A DNA stretch of 6,043 bases from Actinomycetota bacterium (GTDB lineage Bacteria > Actinomycetota > Thermoleophilia > Solirubrobacterales > Solirubrobacteraceae). The stretch lies in assembly GCA_005788585.1 (NCBI GenBank), contig SYBY01000434.1, positions 1 through 6,043 on the forward strand, given 5' to 3'. The translations under genes were made by a program, and so were the position numbers. Shown here one piece after another: positions 1 through 6,043 of this stretch. Position 1 is the first letter of the stretch; each line of letters opens with the position of its first letter. Below the pieces are notes generated by a model. It saw only the letters and a program-made list of their open reading frames with translations, was not told the origin of the DNA and made no database searches.

Positions 1-1212
1 AGACGCGAGCGGCGCGGCGCGGACCGGACGCCGCGCCACCCGCGCGCGGGCGCGGGCCAGGGCCGGCAGCAGCCGGTCCCCGGTGGCGCCCACGTCTTCA
101 CCGAGACCGAAGACGGCGACGACGACGTGCTCGTCGCAGAGTTCGACCTCGATGTCGGCGAGCTCGCGCAGGAGGCGGCCCCAGGCGGGCCCGGTCGCGC
201 CGCTGTCGCGGACGTCGATGACCAGTCGCAGCGGGTCGTGGCCCGCGACGCCGTCGACCTCTGCCAGCGCGGCGCCGTCGAGGGTCCCCAGCCCCGGCAC
301 CCAGCCGATGCGCTCGCGCAGGTCGGCCAGGGCGTCCATCATGCCGCTCAGGAGCGCCGGGCCGTCGCAGGCCGCGCGCCGCCGGGCGGCATCGAGCGAT
401 GCGCGCAGCAGACTGCTCGGGCTCGTGCTCGACACCAGGCGCAGTGCGCGCGCCACCCGTGCTTCGTCCAGCCCGTGCGCGTCGTGGCCCAGGTGCAGCA
501 GGGCCGAGCCCGTCAGGCTGCCGAGATGCTTGTGCGGGCTGCAGACGACGAGGTCGGCGCCCGCGTGCAGCGCGGCCTGCGGCAGGCGCTCGGAGAACGG
601 GAGGTGGGCGCCCCACGCCTCGTCGACGATGAGCGGCACGCCGTGGGCGTGCGCGACCGCCGCAAGCGCCGCGACGTCGGCCACCGCGCCGAAGTATGTC
701 GGTGACACGACGAACGCGGCCGCCGCGTCGGGCGCCGACGTCAGCGCGCGGTCGAGCGAGGCCGGCGTCACGGCATGCGCGATCCCGAGCCGCTCGTCGA
801 CCTCCGGGGTGACGAACACCGGTTCCAGGCCTGCGACGATCAGGCCGTCGATCGTGCTGCCGTGCGCCGTGCGCTGCACCACGACCCGGCGCCCGCCCTG
901 CGCGACCGCCAGACACGCGGCAAGGTTGCCCTGCGACGCTCCGCCGGTCAGGAACCACGTGCGCCGCGCGCCCCACGCCCGGGCGGCGAGCGCCTCCGCG
1001 TGCGCGAGGGGGTCGGCCTCGTCGCCCCGTCCGACGTCGATGCCGGCGATGAGCGTCGGGACATCGAGCGCGTGCGCCGCCGCCCCGAGTGTCGCCACCT
1101 GGTCGCCGCAGGCAGCCCCGCCGCCCTTGTGTCCCGGAACCGTCAGGCGGCCCGGGTCGCGCCCGGCGAACCGGGAGAGCGCGCGGAGATACGGAGCGTC
1201 GTCATCGGTCAT
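1..1212 (-). CDS. Orn/Lys/Arg decarboxylase family PLP-dependent enzyme (3' end cut by window edge)
   Basis: A fold-type I PLP enzyme, probably decarboxylating a basic amino acid such as lysine, arginine or ornithine to a polyamine-type amine; the substrate cannot be assigned. The frame from the ATG at 1212 is open to base 1, giving 404 residues without a stop. Gram-positive-type members usually run to roughly 470-490, so the C-terminal part is missing. Visible motifs: LTVPGHKGGG (23-32), the family N-terminal signature; TGGASQGN (89-96), the phosphate-binding loop; QRTAHGS (113-119) with His117 placed to stack on the cofactor; SPTYFG (170-175); IVDEAWGAH (195-203) with Asp197 for the pyridine nitrogen; and SPHKHLGSLTGSALLHL (225-241), where Lys228 should form the Schiff base. 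The start lies 33 bases after the peroxidase-like stop, with a weak GGGG three bases before the ATG. The motifs make the family secure; an aminotransferase-like activity is less likely. Confidence 0.9.
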   Translation of the reverse strand, partial: MTDDDAPYLRALSRFAGRDPGRLTVPGHKGGGAACGDQVATLGAAAHALDVPTLIAGIDVGRGDEADPLAHAEALAARAWGARRTWFLTGGASQGNLAACLAVAQGGRRVVVQRTAHGSTIDGLIVAGLEPVFVTPEVDERLGIAHAVTPASLDRALTSAPDAAAAFVVSPTYFGAVADVAALAAVAHAHGVPLIVDEAWGAHLPFSERLPQAALHAGADLVVCSPHKHLGSLTGSALLHLGHDAHGLDEARVARALRLVSSTSPSSLLRASLDAARRRAACDGPALLSGMMDALADLRERIGWVPGLGTLDGAALAEVDGVAGHDPLRLVIDVRDSGATGPAWGRLLRELADIEVELCDEHVVVAVFGLGEDVGATGDRLLPALARARARVARRPVRAAPLAS

Positions 1213-1245: not shown

Positions 1246-2673
1246 TCAGGAACGTTGTGCCACGGCGATGAGGTCGGCCATCCGGAAGGTGTCGCCCGCG
1301 AACGGCAGCGTCGGCGTCCAGCCCGGCTCGGCGTGCAGGTACGCGTCAGGGTCGTCGGCGACGAGCCCGACCAGCGTCTCGGCGACGATCCGCCCGCCGA
1401 CCGGCCCGAGGCAGCAGCCCTGGCAGAGCTCGCCGGCTTCGCGCAGGACGTAGTACCAGAGCGGCGTCGCGCGCTCGAGTGCCGGGAGTGCGGCGAGCCC
1501 GAGCCGGGAGGCGGGCAGCGGGTCGATGGACATCGCGCCCGCGACGGCCTGGCCCGACGGGAGCCCGAGCGTGGCGCCCTCGAGCAGCGCCGGCAGCGCG
1601 GGGGTGTGGACGCGCTCGTCGATGCGGTGCGCGGCCTGCGGACGGTGCGGCTCGCCGCTGGTGCGGAAGAACATGCGCCAGTCGATGCCCCACTGCGGCG
1701 GCAGCGGCCGATGGCCGGCGAGGCGCGCCGTCGAGACGGGCCGCCCGTCGCGCAGGTCGTCGACGACCTCGTTGAGGACGTAGGCGGTGCGCGTCATCGC
1801 CGGCGCCAACCGGAACGCCGCGGCCGAGAACTCCAGTGGCACCACCGGGGCCTCGGCGGTGCGATGGAACCGCAGGCGCGGGCGGACGACCTCCGTCGTG
1901 CTGCTGACCGGGTGGCCCGGGTCGAGCGGATTCAGCGGCGCGGGGTCGGGCGACCAGCCGGTGCTGATGACGAACTCCTCGCGGTGGAGGACGTCGTGCA
2001 TGACGTCCTCGCCGCACAGGCGCGGCAGCAGGTCGTTGAGGATGACCCACTGGTAGTGCCAGCGCGCGAGCCGGCGCGCGGCGGCGAAGTCCTCGTCCGC
2101 CGTGGTCGCGCCGCTGTCGCGGACCTCGTCGACGACCGCGTTGTGGAAGCGCAGCAGGAGCCCGTGGAGCTGGCCGAGGATGACGTCGTCGTCGTTGCGG
2201 GCGTCGGCGATCACGGCGACGTCGCCCATGCGCGGCAGGTCGGGGCCGGCCTCCGGGCCGCGATCGGAGACGCGCAGGCCGAGGCGGAACTTGGCGGGGT
2301 CGGCCTCGTCGTACAGGTACGGCTGGCGGTCGGGTCCGTCGCCGTAGACCGTCCCGAGGTCCAGGCGGGCCGCGGATGGCGCGAAGGTCAGATCGTGCTC
2401 GGCGAGCCGGCAGAGGTGCGCGTAGCCCGCGGGGATCGCGAGGTTCTCGCGCGGGCGCATCGCGGCGACGGGCCCGTCGGCGTGCTCCATCCGGGCGGCG
2501 AGCTCCCGCAGTTCGTCCTCGGGCGCGGGGGCGGTGGGGGCGCTCGGGAAGAGGCGGTGCTGGTCGCCGGTCGATCGCGCCGGAGCGAACGGCTCAGACG
2601 GCCGCTGCGCGGGTCCGGGTGCGGTGGTGGTCCCGGACCCCTGGGGCCCGCTGCGTGCCGTGCTGCCGATCAT
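1246..2673 (-). CDS. Animal-type heme peroxidase superfamily protein, proximal heme ligand missing (possible pseudo-peroxidase)
   Basis: A 475-residue homologue of bacterial cyclooxygenase/myeloperoxidase-like proteins. Residues 1-45 are a Pro/Gly/Thr-rich, probably disordered leader. Family landmarks follow: AEHDLTF (distal His93, Asp94), LDLGTVYGDGP (104-114), ADARNDDDVILGQLHGLLLRFHN (catalytic-type Arg159), WHYQWVILNDLLPRLCG (205-221), EFSAAAFR (281-288), IDWRMFF, GLPSGQ (370-375), ATPLWYYVLREAG and LGPVGGRIVAE (422-432). The expected R-F-G-H-[ST]-M reads RLAPAM, so the proximal heme His is Pro291. The Asn and Arg of the following heme-pocket helix (Asn421/Arg424 in myeloperoxidase numbering) are Ala362 and Glu365. 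The reading frame is intact, so this is not ordinary decay. The ATG at 2673 is preferred: GGAG lies five bases upstream, whereas the alternative TTG at 2706 has no clear site and would overlap the previous gene. Gap to the hydrolase stop is 25 bases. Peroxidase activity is doubtful; the true role is unknown. Confidence 0.9.
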   Translation of the reverse strand: MIGSTARSGPQGSGTTTAPGPAQRPSEPFAPARSTGDQHRLFPSAPTAPAPEDELRELAARMEHADGPVAAMRPRENLAIPAGYAHLCRLAEHDLTFAPSAARLDLGTVYGDGPDRQPYLYDEADPAKFRLGLRVSDRGPEAGPDLPRMGDVAVIADARNDDDVILGQLHGLLLRFHNAVVDEVRDSGATTADEDFAAARRLARWHYQWVILNDLLPRLCGEDVMHDVLHREEFVISTGWSPDPAPLNPLDPGHPVSSTTEVVRPRLRFHRTAEAPVVPLEFSAAAFRLAPAMTRTAYVLNEVVDDLRDGRPVSTARLAGHRPLPPQWGIDWRMFFRTSGEPHRPQAAHRIDERVHTPALPALLEGATLGLPSGQAVAGAMSIDPLPASRLGLAALPALERATPLWYYVLREAGELCQGCCLGPVGGRIVAETLVGLVADDPDAYLHAEPGWTPTLPFAGDTFRMADLIAVAQRS

Positions 2674-2698: not shown

Positions 2699-4390
2699 TC
2701 ACCCAACCGGCGTAACGGCGGAGGGAACGATGTTCACCCCCGGGACCGGCTCGTCCGCGAGGGCGTCGAGTACGATCGGGAAGACGTCGCGCGGTGCGTC
2801 GTCGCCCATCCAGCAGTCGAAGTGGCCGTAGCCGCGCAGCTCGCGCAGCTGGTGCCGGCCGGGCTGATGGCGGTCGAACCACGCGAACGACCGCGCCTGG
2901 CTCTCCGGCGAGAAGCAGCGATTCGACGTTCCCTGCAGGAACGTGATCCGCGCGTGTGTCTGCGGCGGCTGGGCGCACAGGTCCCGGGGTACCCCTTCAT
3001 GCGGCCGATCCCACACGAGGTGCCCGCGCAGGATGCTGCGCCGCATCTGGCGGAAGAAGCGGATCGGGATCCACTCGAACTCGTCGGTGAGCCAGTCGTG
3101 GGTCTCGCGCGAGAGCTTGCCGTGATCCCACATCGCCGACCGGCTGTAGCCGTAGAAGAAGCTCGAGATGCGGCAGACGAGGTTGTCGCACTCCCGATTC
3201 GTCGTCCGGACCCAGAGGCGGATGAGGCGCGACAGCCAGTTCTGCGGCCGGATCCCCCAACTGATGTCGACGTACTCCGCGACCAGACCCATGAGCGGCG
3301 TGAGCCCCACGATCTTCGCCTTCGACCGCGGGTGGACGACCGGGTGCAGCGCCATCGCGTTGCACACCACGGTGTCGACCTGCGGCATCTTCCCGCTCAC
3401 CAGTCCCATGAAGAACGACGAGCTGCCCTGGCAGTGCACCAGCGCCTTGACCCGCTCGGCGCCGGTGACGCGAACGACGGTGCGGACGCCCTCCGGGTGG
3501 TCGTACAGCGCGCCCTCATCGAGGGACCAGGTGTTGCGGGCGTGCTCGAAGCTCGCGCGCCACTCGTTCAGCCACACGTCATAGCCCGCGTCGACGAGCG
3601 CCTCGACGATGTTGATCTCGATCGGTGCACGGAAGATGTTGGTGCGGACCGACGACCCGGCGGCCATGTAGACAGGGCCGAGGTCGGGCTCGCGGTCGGC
3701 GTGGCGCACGCGGACCAGGTGCCCGGTGAATCCGTCCTCGGTGGTGTAGGGGACGATCTCCTCGCGCAGCGGGATCGGCGAGCGGCGCGGTGCGGGCGCG
3801 CGGCGCTTCGGGGTGTCGGGCAGCCGCTCGGCGCCGTAGGCCTGCCAGAGGTTCTTCGCGAAGAAGCTCCCGAACGCCAGCGGCGCCGCGGTGCCGTCCC
3901 AGCCGACGGTCGTCATCTGGCGCAGGAAGTCGCCGGCGGTCAGGCGCAGGATGCCGATCGCCACGCGCTCGCCCGTGGTCTCGTCGCGCAGCTCGGTGAG
4001 CAGCGTGGTCGTGTCGCGCCAGACGTCGAAGCCCTCCTCGTCCTGCACGTGCTTCTCACCGGACAGGACGAGCGCCCGGCCGTCCGGGCCCGTGAACGGC
4101 AGCCAATAGCGCATCTCGCGCTTGCGCGGGTGGTCGGTGTCGGGGAAGAGGTTGAACGTGCCGGCGGTGACGGGGAACGCCTCGTCGCCGAGCTTCACCC
4201 ACCCGCGGGCGGATGCGGTGTGCGTGGAGTCGGCGTGGAACGCCGCGGTGTCGTCGACCTCGATGGTCAGGTGGAACATGACCGCGGTGCCGGCCTGCTC
4301 GCCCCGCCGCCGGCCGCGCTCGTGGTCGCTCTCGGCCGGGTCGAACAGCAGGTGACCGTCCATCTCCTCGGTGAAGCGCAGACTGCTCAC
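2699..4390 (-). CDS. Alpha/beta-hydrolase with N-terminal GMC-associated domain and Cys nucleophile elbow
   Basis: A 563-residue putative esterase/acyl-transfer enzyme of the type that accompanies, or is fused to, GMC oxidoreductases. Residues 1-185 form an extra, probably beta-rich domain (FTEEMDGHL; GTFNLFPDT at 77-85; a stretch ending WRDTTTLLTEL at 124-134). Residues about 215-545 are the alpha/beta-hydrolase domain. The nucleophile elbow is VHCQGSSS, so the residue in the usual Ser position is Cys320, as in PHA synthases and dienelactone hydrolases. The likely catalytic His is His523 in GYGHFDCWMG. The acid is unclear: Asn490 sits where Asp is usual, with Glu496 nearby. The GTG start at 4390 is chosen because it overlaps the upstream TGA by four bases and follows an AGGAGGG site by six bases; the upstream in-frame extension would run 105 bases into the oxidoreductase gene. 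No secretion signal is seen. Substrate is unknown; a steryl or lipid ester is plausible. Confidence 0.9.
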   Translation of the reverse strand: MSSLRFTEEMDGHLLFDPAESDHERGRRRGEQAGTAVMFHLTIEVDDTAAFHADSTHTASARGWVKLGDEAFPVTAGTFNLFPDTDHPRKREMRYWLPFTGPDGRALVLSGEKHVQDEEGFDVWRDTTTLLTELRDETTGERVAIGILRLTAGDFLRQMTTVGWDGTAAPLAFGSFFAKNLWQAYGAERLPDTPKRRAPAPRRSPIPLREEIVPYTTEDGFTGHLVRVRHADREPDLGPVYMAAGSSVRTNIFRAPIEINIVEALVDAGYDVWLNEWRASFEHARNTWSLDEGALYDHPEGVRTVVRVTGAERVKALVHCQGSSSFFMGLVSGKMPQVDTVVCNAMALHPVVHPRSKAKIVGLTPLMGLVAEYVDISWGIRPQNWLSRLIRLWVRTTNRECDNLVCRISSFFYGYSRSAMWDHGKLSRETHDWLTDEFEWIPIRFFRQMRRSILRGHLVWDRPHEGVPRDLCAQPPQTHARITFLQGTSNRCFSPESQARSFAWFDRHQPGRHQLRELRGYGHFDCWMGDDAPRDVFPIVLDALADEPVPGVNIVPSAVTPVG

Positions 4391-6043
4391 AGCCGTCCCT
4401 CCTGACGCAGGATGTGCTCGGCGTGCCGGTCGGCGAACGCCGCGATGGTGAGGCTCGGATTGGAGCCGACGGCGCCGGGCATCGCCGCGCCGCACGCCAC
4501 GCTCAGGCCGGGATGGCCGAAGACCTGCCCGTACTCGTCGACGACGCCCTCGCCCGCGTCGCGGCCCATCGGCGCGCCGCCGAGGGCGTGGACGGTGACC
4601 GTCGGTGCGCGGCGGCGCCCGACGGGGTCGGCGGCGAACTTGCCGCCGAGCTGGCCGGCGATCGCCCGCGACGCCGCGCGGATCCGGCCGAACACGCGGC
4701 CGGCGCGCCGGCGCGACCAGTCGGTCAGCAGCGTGTCGCCGTCGAGGTACAGGCGGGCGTGGGTGACCTCGCGGCCCATGCCGACGATGGGCAGCATGCC
4801 CGCCGGCGTGCGCAGGTCGCCGAACAGGGCGGCGATGTCGGCGCCGAGGTGCGGGTCGACCCGGCCGGTCATCCGCTCACGGGCGACGCGCAGCAGCGTG
4901 CGCTTGGCCTGCCACAGCGCCCGGGGCATGCCGGTCAGCTGGAGCATCCACGCGGTGTGCGCGGGGTAGCCGGCGTCCTGGAGGTAGTACCCCGCCATGC
5001 CGGAGACGTCGTCGCCGACCCGCGCCGCGGTGGTGATGACCGGGCCCCGGCTGCCCTCGATCTCACGCAGCCGCCGCGCTCGCCCGGACGTCTCCTCGCC
5101 CGCCCGGCGCACGAACGCGATGTGGTCGCCGTTGCCGTTGAAGCGGGTGCCCAGGGTCGGGCTGAGGTGCCGCAGGTGGGCGCGGTTGCGCAGCAGCAGG
5201 TACGTCGTCCCAAGCGTTCCCGCGGCGAGGACGAGCCGGTCGCACGTCAGGGTCACGGGCGGGCAGAGCGCGGGGTCGTGCGTGTTGGTCGGGATGCCCT
5301 CGCGCTCCTCGGGGTGGGTCACGGCGCGGACGAGGTAGCCGCCTTCGGGCCGGGGGACGATGAGCCGCACCTCGGTCCGCGTGCGGATCGTGGCCCCGGC
5401 TCGCTTGGCCCGCGAGAGGTAGGTCAGGTCCATGGTCCGCTTCGCGCCGTCGTTGCAGCCCAGGTCGCACTCGCCGCACAGCGTGCAGGTGCGGCGCGCG
5501 GCGTCGTGAAGGTTGTCGTCGTCGGGCAGCGCGCGGCCGGGCCGGGGCGGCCCGCCGTTCGCCGAGAAGGCGACGGCGAGCGGGGGACGGAACGTCTCCA
5601 GGCCGGCGCCCGCCGCGGCCTGTGCGAACGCTGCGGCCTTCGGCGAGCGGTCGAGGTAGGCGTCCGGGAACGGGGTCGGCTGGAGGTCGGCTTCGATGCG
5701 GTCGTAGTGCGGCGCGAGGTCGTCGTAGCTGATGGGCCAGCTCCAGGGCACGCCGTCGCGCTGCTCGGTGAACCACTCCGGGTCCTTGCGCAGCAGGACG
5801 TTGGCGTAGATCAGCGACCCACCGCCGAGGCCGCTGGCGACGACCGCGCCGAGCTCCTTGAACGACCACACGTCGAACATCCCGTGCAGGCCTTCGCTCG
5901 GGTCCCAGAACGCGTTGCGCAGCTGGTGCGCGGTGCGCGGGAACTCGCCGGGGGCGATCGCCTTGCCGCGCTCGAGGACGCAGACGTCCATCCCGGCCTC
6001 CGCGAGGCGGCAGGCGGTGACGGACCCTCCGAATCCCGAGCCG
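4387..6043 (-). CDS. GMC-family FAD-dependent oxidoreductase, cholesterol-oxidase-like (5' end cut by window edge)
   Basis: Probably oxidises a hydroxyl group on a sterol-like or other lipophilic alcohol using FAD; the substrate is inferred. The frame is open to the right edge, giving 551 visible residues (residue 1 is the codon at 6042-6040), and probably only about 10 N-terminal residues are missing. Visible motifs: the dinucleotide-binding GSGFGG at residues 1-6, followed by VLERG with the ribose-binding Glu24; GLGGGSLIYANV, the flavin-contact segment typical of cholesterol-oxidase relatives; a cysteine cluster CTLCGECDLGC (Cys186, 189, 192, 196); and the C-terminal GMC signature with His485 (VHALGG) and Asn528 (SNPSLTI), matching the His/Asn active-site pair of cholesterol oxidase. 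An oddity is Cys517 in VACGAAMP, where relatives usually have Asp. No Tat signal is visible, but the extreme N-terminus is missing. Its TGA overlaps the GTG start of the hydrolase gene. The family call is firm; a cholesterol-specific role is not. Confidence 0.93.
   Translation of the reverse strand, partial: GSGFGGSVTACRLAEAGMDVCVLERGKAIAPGEFPRTAHQLRNAFWDPSEGLHGMFDVWSFKELGAVVASGLGGGSLIYANVLLRKDPEWFTEQRDGVPWSWPISYDDLAPHYDRIEADLQPTPFPDAYLDRSPKAAAFAQAAAGAGLETFRPPLAVAFSANGGPPRPGRALPDDDNLHDAARRTCTLCGECDLGCNDGAKRTMDLTYLSRAKRAGATIRTRTEVRLIVPRPEGGYLVRAVTHPEEREGIPTNTHDPALCPPVTLTCDRLVLAAGTLGTTYLLLRNRAHLRHLSPTLGTRFNGNGDHIAFVRRAGEETSGRARRLREIEGSRGPVITTAARVGDDVSGMAGYYLQDAGYPAHTAWMLQLTGMPRALWQAKRTLLRVARERMTGRVDPHLGADIAALFGDLRTPAGMLPIVGMGREVTHARLYLDGDTLLTDWSRRRAGRVFGRIRAASRAIAGQLGGKFAADPVGRRRAPTVTVHALGGAPMGRDAGEGVVDEYGQVFGHPGLSVACGAAMPGAVGSNPSLTIAAFADRHAEHILRQEGRL
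4397..4403 (-). promoter_or_regulatory. Ribosome binding site AGGAGGG of the hydrolase gene
   Basis: On the minus strand AGGAGGG lies six bases before the GTG at 4390, inside the last codons of the oxidoreductase gene. This near-perfect Shine-Dalgarno sequence fixes the GTG start and, with the GTGA stop/start overlap at 4387-4390, indicates translational coupling of the two genes. Confidence 0.8.

Follow-up and report, generated by a model that had tools for sequence, protein, structure and literature searches.

The window analysed here is a 6,043-nucleotide stretch of contig SYBY01000434.1 (GCA_005788585.1), assigned to an Actinomycetota bacterium of the family Solirubrobacteraceae. It carries four genes, all on the minus strand and in the order GMC flavo-oxidoreductase, alpha/beta-hydrolase-like protein, peroxidase homologue, and Orn/Lys/Arg decarboxylase-family protein. 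The subject of this study is the third of them (1246..2673), a PF03098 homologue without the proximal heme-ligand His, which is translated into 475 amino acids from an ATG at 2673 (a TTG at 2706 is also in frame); the database protein P0002 begins at the same Met. Over residues 163-280 of the frame that begins at the TTG, the homologue scores 31 bits against PF03098 (curated cut-off 25), and none of the NCBIfam profiles matches it. In a predicted model, the peroxidase/cyclooxygenase (myeloperoxidase/cyclooxygenase) fold is retained. The data considered below make it moderately probable that the gene is a pseudo-peroxidase maintained by selection, whose likeliest role is structural or as a partner for the proteins encoded with it in the operon.

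The proximal segment and the rest of the heme pocket

Residues 282-293 of the window protein read FSAAAFRLAPAM. The proximal segment within them, R288-L-A-P291-A-M293 (1795..1812, minus strand), stands where relatives have R-[FY]-G-H-[SAT]-M, and Pro291 (CCG at 1801-1803) takes the place of the proximal His. It was this replacement that the original prediction, made from the letters of the window, had pointed out; the residue and the reading of the segment both hold, while the range given for the latter (1796..1813) was one base off. The alignment to the family motif is gap-free, with E-F-S-A-A-A upstream and M-x-R-x-x-Y-x-x-N downstream. Among 207 aligned sequences, of which 203 are database proteins and the other four are loci that include the window, the proximal column contains His in 204 and Pro in three; 71 further, partly redundant sequences brought the count to 274 His among 277 residues, with a single gap besides. 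The Pro-bearing sequences are the window, P0002 (98% identical), and L001 (95%), which lies on an independent contig of a metagenome-assembled genome (MAG) of a Solirubrobacteraceae bacterium. They form one clade (support 100/100), and the A-P-A replacement is common to its three members. No other His aligns at the proximal place in the window protein, so that the comparison with bacterial peroxidases, proposed earlier as a check, left the replacement standing. The L001 segment is G-L-A-P-A-M, Arg288 being lost there as well (Gly).

The codon at the proximal site is CAC (His) in the orthologue of Svornostia abyssi J379 (L002) and in that of G142, a third genome of the genus (L037), CCC in L001, and CCG in the window. 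Since CAC to CCC is a single-base change, substitutions suffice for the Pro, and CCC to CCG is silent. A local double frameshift as the origin of the segment was considered and rejected on the codons, the CCC of L001 being one base away from CAC. When the bacterial-family profile is aligned to the solved chain 8s6c, its G-H lines up with the G-H of that chain, with weak significance when taken alone (i-Evalue 14); the D-x-R motif is significant alone, G-Q-F-x-D-H-D and the Asn segment are, like G-H, each weak alone, and all of them are placed as assumed.

The changes extend to both sides of the pocket. On the distal side, His93 (2395..2397) is kept, as in all 205 sequences with a residue there, and so is Arg159 of D-x-R-N-D (2197..2199; Arg in 207/207). 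The distal Gln of G-Q-F is replaced by Arg89 (2407..2409) in a column with 200 Gln and five Arg; the five sequences are the His-less clade (three) and the pair formed by G142 and P0008 (two). The loop that follows bears a 16-residue deletion at A102/R103 (2365..2370), which, by comparison of loop lengths, removes the calcium-loop Thr-Pro, the distance from HD to YG being 19 residues in the window against 35 in 196 of 207 sequences (the pattern was unmatched in seven). Gly107 (2353..2355) replaces the second Asp of D-L-D-[SA] (Gly in 3/205, Asp in 202/205). On the proximal side, the alignment puts A362-L-L-E365 (1579..1590) in place of N-L-L-R after a further deletion; in comparison with L002, the proximal Asn has thus given way to Ala, and the Arg three residues on to Glu. 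The Asn column is not strict, relatives with the proximal His having Asn in 186 cases, Asp in 13, Thr in three, and His in two. The window protein retains distal His93, Asp94, Asp105, Arg159, and Arg288, two loop Asp being kept.

Of what is found in a functional heme peroxidase, the window protein therefore has the distal catalytic Arg (Arg159) and lacks the proximal His, the proximal Asn, the complete distal Gln-x-x-x-His pair (His kept, Gln lost), and the full calcium loop. It was supposed originally that motifs other than the proximal one are intact; this did not hold, given the exchange of distal Gln for Arg and of proximal Asn for Ala, the deleted Thr-Pro, and the Asp-to-Gly change in the calcium loop. 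With residues missing from either side of the pocket, normal heme binding becomes still less likely. A set of 81 near-invariant columns (at least 97% conserved among the 202 sequences outside two degenerate groups, the His-less clade and the G142/P0008 pair) gives the same distribution: the window differs at 17 of them, 16 of the 41 in four heme-pocket segments and one of the 40 elsewhere, and all six around the distal Arg are kept. The subclade member P0003 retains all listed heme-pocket residues, including the His, as well as the loop Thr and both Asp, and yet has a 19-residue loop; since this length occurs together with His, it cannot mark heme loss by itself.

Outside the pocket, the protein has preserved what distinguishes its subclade. 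The motif C417-Q-G-C-C421 (1411..1425), directly before L-G-P-V-G-G-R, corresponds to C-x-G-C-C, which 11 of the 12 sequences in the subclade have and none of 195 other sequences has (the P0009 variant is C-Q-G-R-C). Cys220, His226, and His254 occur in 12/12 members against eight, none, and one of the 195 others, respectively, and an insert at about 238-261 is largely particular to the subclade. The three His-less members have retained all of these; on the evidence of sequence, the subclade-specific features have outlived the heme ligand.

Selection, genomic context, and relatives

For the peroxidase genes of the window and L001, both already without the His, the ratio of nonsynonymous to synonymous substitution rates (dN/dS; pairwise Nei-Gojobori at dS 0.23) is 0.117 (bootstrap 0.067-0.182), with 75.5 synonymous and 27.5 nonsynonymous differences. 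The neighbouring genes give 0.085 (GMC), 0.111 (hydrolase), and 0.158 (decarboxylase) in the same comparison. In a simulation, 103 random substitutions produced 67.1 residue changes on average (standard deviation 4.7, minimum 51 in 2000 runs), and 24 are observed, with a single change between the two loci in the final 115 residues. The frame is open in the window and in L001, and P0002 is full-length, in accordance with the intact frame noted originally; such an open frame by itself proves little, because 306 of 2000 neutral runs also kept it. Neither sign of a pseudogene, a broken frame or a neutral dN/dS, was found for the peroxidase homologue, on which purifying selection acts to the same degree as on the neighbouring genes of the operon. 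Thus, of the suggestion that this is a maintained pseudo-peroxidase with its other motifs preserved, the absent His and the maintenance stand, while the intactness of the remaining motifs does not.

The decarboxylase-family gene (1..1212, minus strand; PF01276, E 2e-48) and the GMC gene (4387..6043, minus strand) are both cut by the window edges. The GMC protein is cholesterol-oxidase-like, with PF05199 and PF00732 above their cut-offs and 167 bits against the cholesterol oxidase profile NF058674, far under its cut-off of 850. The hydrolase-like protein (2699..4390, minus strand) has a weak PF00561 match only (E 0.0033, below the cut-off). Its GTG start overlaps the GMC stop, and the two intergenic gaps that follow measure 25 and 33 bases, because of which the four genes look like one operon. 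At about residue 320 of the hydrolase-like protein, the presumed nucleophile elbow reads VHCQGSSSF, with Cys where Ser is usual; H-C-Q-G-S is found in all nine hydrolase loci examined from other genomes (L062-L070). Residues 186-196 of the GMC open frame, C-T-L-C-G-E-C-D-L-G-C, which recur in L001 and L037, are a possible metal or iron-sulfur site. In S. abyssi J379, the GMC gene is split across two frames at about 5710-5717 of L002 (residues 1-360 in frame 3 and 358-550 in frame 1), which reflects either a true frameshift or a misassembly; the peroxidase adjacent to it is the intact one.

The gene order is identical in the window, L001, L002, and L037. Hydrolase matches at E <=1e-40 are present in nine genomes that belong to the family but not to the genus. 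In seven of these genomes (G133, G123, G017, G019, G113, G117, and G094), a GMC match lies near the hydrolase with no peroxidase match nearby; in G140, the GMC and hydrolase matches fall on separate contigs, and in G014 no match to GMC reaches E <=1e-60. Since hydrolase/GMC loci exist elsewhere in the family without a nearby peroxidase, the latter looks like an addition in this genus. The neighbourhoods of eight further peroxidases in eight genomes (L039-L046, genes called by a rough rule) contain no GMC, hydrolase, or decarboxylase match. Compensation for the loss by another animal-type peroxidase was considered and rejected: G001 and G002 have one PF03098 match each, and G142 has a second animal-type peroxidase on contig C15. 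KatG-type PF00141 is present in 3/3 genus members, so that other heme enzymes exist there, and the catalase family PF00199 in 0/3.

A different stage of degeneration is represented by G142 (L037:8355-9857) and its 95% relative P0008, which keep the proximal His and have lost other pocket residues: the distal Gln has become Arg, R-F-G has become A-V-S, and His occupies the places of the first loop Asp, the proximal Asn, and the proximal Arg. G142 differs at 11 of the 81 near-invariant columns, 10 of them within the pocket segments (p 0.007). In the peroxidase tree (23 rows of the 207; 19 rows in the version without pocket columns), the His-less clade is sister to this pair (100/98; 90/99 without pocket columns), and a constraint placing the window clade with L002, P0006, and P0004 was rejected (approximately unbiased test, p-AU 0.0016). 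In the GMC tree (first 360 residues), the window and L001 group with Svornostia at a support of 97/94; the placement of the window clade is undecided in the hydrolase tree. The branches are long, 0.39 for the His-less clade and 0.33 for G142/P0008, against at most 0.16 for intact subclade members; without the pocket columns, the values are 0.28 and 0.29, with the intact members at most 0.19. The grouping of the two fast clades may reflect long-branch attraction, or the shared Gln-to-Arg change may be a single event. Both a shared start of pocket loss and two parallel ones are compatible with the trees.

A proposed heme-less role and its alternatives

Judged by the residues that are gone, the window protein would not carry His-ligated heme and would not perform the classical peroxidase reaction: with the proximal His, the distal Gln, the proximal Asn and Arg, and the full calcium loop lost, binding of heme iron in the manner of the family is not expected. 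Purifying selection acts on the frame, and the fold has been preserved along with the subclade cysteines and the insert, which implies that the window protein still has a job. By analogy, this is probably a structural or partner role for the GMC oxidase and the hydrolase of the operon, a point held with less confidence than the heme loss. A complete heme pocket would have been present in an ancestor of the lineage, and the syntenic S. abyssi orthologue still appears to have one. In the window lineage, the proximal His may have passed to Pro via CAC, CCC, and CCG, the distal Gln to Arg, with loss of the proximal Asn and Arg and shortening of the calcium loop. The heme-less fold could then serve the flavo-oxidase, which is of the H2O2-forming kind, and the hydrolase, comparably to the heme-less domain of animal dual oxidases.

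Several observations weigh against this interpretation. The partner role is drawn from gene order alone, and a peroxidase whose site is intact adjoins a GMC oxidase in G030 (L038), which means that simple use of H2O2 would account for the pairing as well. Both His93 and Arg159 on the distal side, which would be superfluous in a purely structural protein, are kept in 3/3 His-less members. The clade itself comprises three sequences only, two of them 98% alike, and the p-value for the concentration of changes in the pocket (Fisher, 5e-5) is descriptive, the pocket segments having been drawn with the motifs known.

The retention of these two distal residues is what would be expected if heme were still bound through another ligand, either His93, on the opposite side of the heme, or a His particular to the clade, the protein acting as a sensor, a carrier, or an unusual oxidant. 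There are candidates for the latter: H39, H86, H270, and H356 occur in 3/3 His-less members and in none of 204 others, H64, H349, and H447 are nearly clade-specific (two, three, and six of the 204), and H356 sits six residues ahead of the lost proximal Asn site. We consider such binding unlikely, as the losses also include the distal Gln, two proximal residues (Asn and Arg), and a portion of the calcium loop, L001 has lost Arg288, and no His is aligned at the proximal place. For purified protein, a heme-free first preparation would not be decisive without titration, because a bacterial peroxidase domain described in PMC3396595 was purified heme-free and its activity measured after hemin had been added. 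New non-heme chemistry, for example at a metal or thiol site built from C-x-G-C-C, Cys220, His226, and His254, is quite unlikely. These residues are typical of the subclade and all kept in the three His-less copies, but C-x-G-C-C also occurs in members of the subclade whose heme pocket is complete, and hence did not arise to replace heme, and P0009 has Arg for one of its Cys.

It is very unlikely that the gene is in decay, its function gone and its frame unbroken by chance. The fast branches of the His-less clade and of G142/P0008, both with pocket residues lost, would suit this view, as would the fraction of neutral frames that stayed open; nevertheless, dN/dS after the loss lies within the range of the neighbours, residue changes are 24 where 67 are expected, and the last 115 residues have a single one. 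As for a sequencing or alignment artefact, its probability is practically nil: Pro291 is not a base error, because the same motif is present in P0002 and in the separately assembled contig L001, there with different codons, and its flanks align without gaps; L001 and P0002 refute this reading. The pseudo-peroxidase kept by selection therefore remains the interpretation that we favour. A broader proposal, which we regard as rather doubtful, is that a dual-oxidase-like arrangement, divided between separate chains, evolved in bacteria independently of its animal counterpart, and that in it a heme-stripped peroxidase fold partners an H2O2-making flavin oxidase (the cholesterol-oxidase-like GMC protein), two species of one genus being at different stages of pocket loss.

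Comparison with known peroxidases and dual oxidases

In PMC4420034, bacterial short peroxicins form family 5 of the peroxidase-cyclooxygenase superfamily. Like them, the window protein is a single-domain bacterial protein with PF03098 and the same fold, and it may tentatively be placed in this family; it differs from them in having no proximal His, proximal Asn, or distal Gln. According to the same source, the Asn is hydrogen-bonded to the proximal His except in families 4 and 7, and the calcium loop after the distal His is incompletely conserved in ancestral members. The peroxidase of Cyanobacterium TDX16 (8s6c), unlike the window protein, has G-Q-F-L-D-H-D and R-V-G-H-T-M. Much closer is the S. 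abyssi J379 orthologue (L002:8001-9581), which occupies the same place in the operon and is 66% identical over aligned codons. It and its intact mates P0003-P0007 share C-x-G-C-C and the subclade insert with the window protein, and have R-F-G-H together with four distal residues (Gln, His, Asp, and Arg) and two proximal ones (Asn and Arg). Of these, the window protein has kept three on the distal side (His, Asp, and Arg) and, from R-F-G-H, the Arg. This intact-motif orthologue and the half-way form in the third genome make a useful comparison set. A PF03098 match above cut-off is, in turn, insufficient to call a protein a peroxidase.

Among the literature matches listed (most subscription journals lay outside the scope), none describes a bacterial member without the proximal His. 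The window protein, by sequence a bacterial peroxidase-fold protein that is under selection without its heme ligand, has its known precedent in the domain of animal dual oxidases (DUOX, family 7). PMC4420034 (2015) describes dual oxidases as having no proximal His, with the function of the domain then obscure. In PMC7794343, the human DUOX1 peroxidase domain has neither the ligand His nor heme density, and mutants at either cation site fail to assemble with DUOXA1, for which the authors blame folding. High DUOX rows in a Foldseek search were not taken as kinship, since myeloperoxidase and DUOX1 differ by less than 1 Z. DUOX1 retains both cation sites, whereas part of the second one is gone from the window protein. 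In DUOX, the peroxidase domain and an NADPH oxidase are in one chain; in the window, there is no such fusion, and the homologue is a separate 475-amino-acid protein beside a GMC oxidase and a hydrolase-like protein. A single-domain bacterial counterpart of the dead dual oxidase domain would allow the heme-less peroxidase fold to be studied directly.
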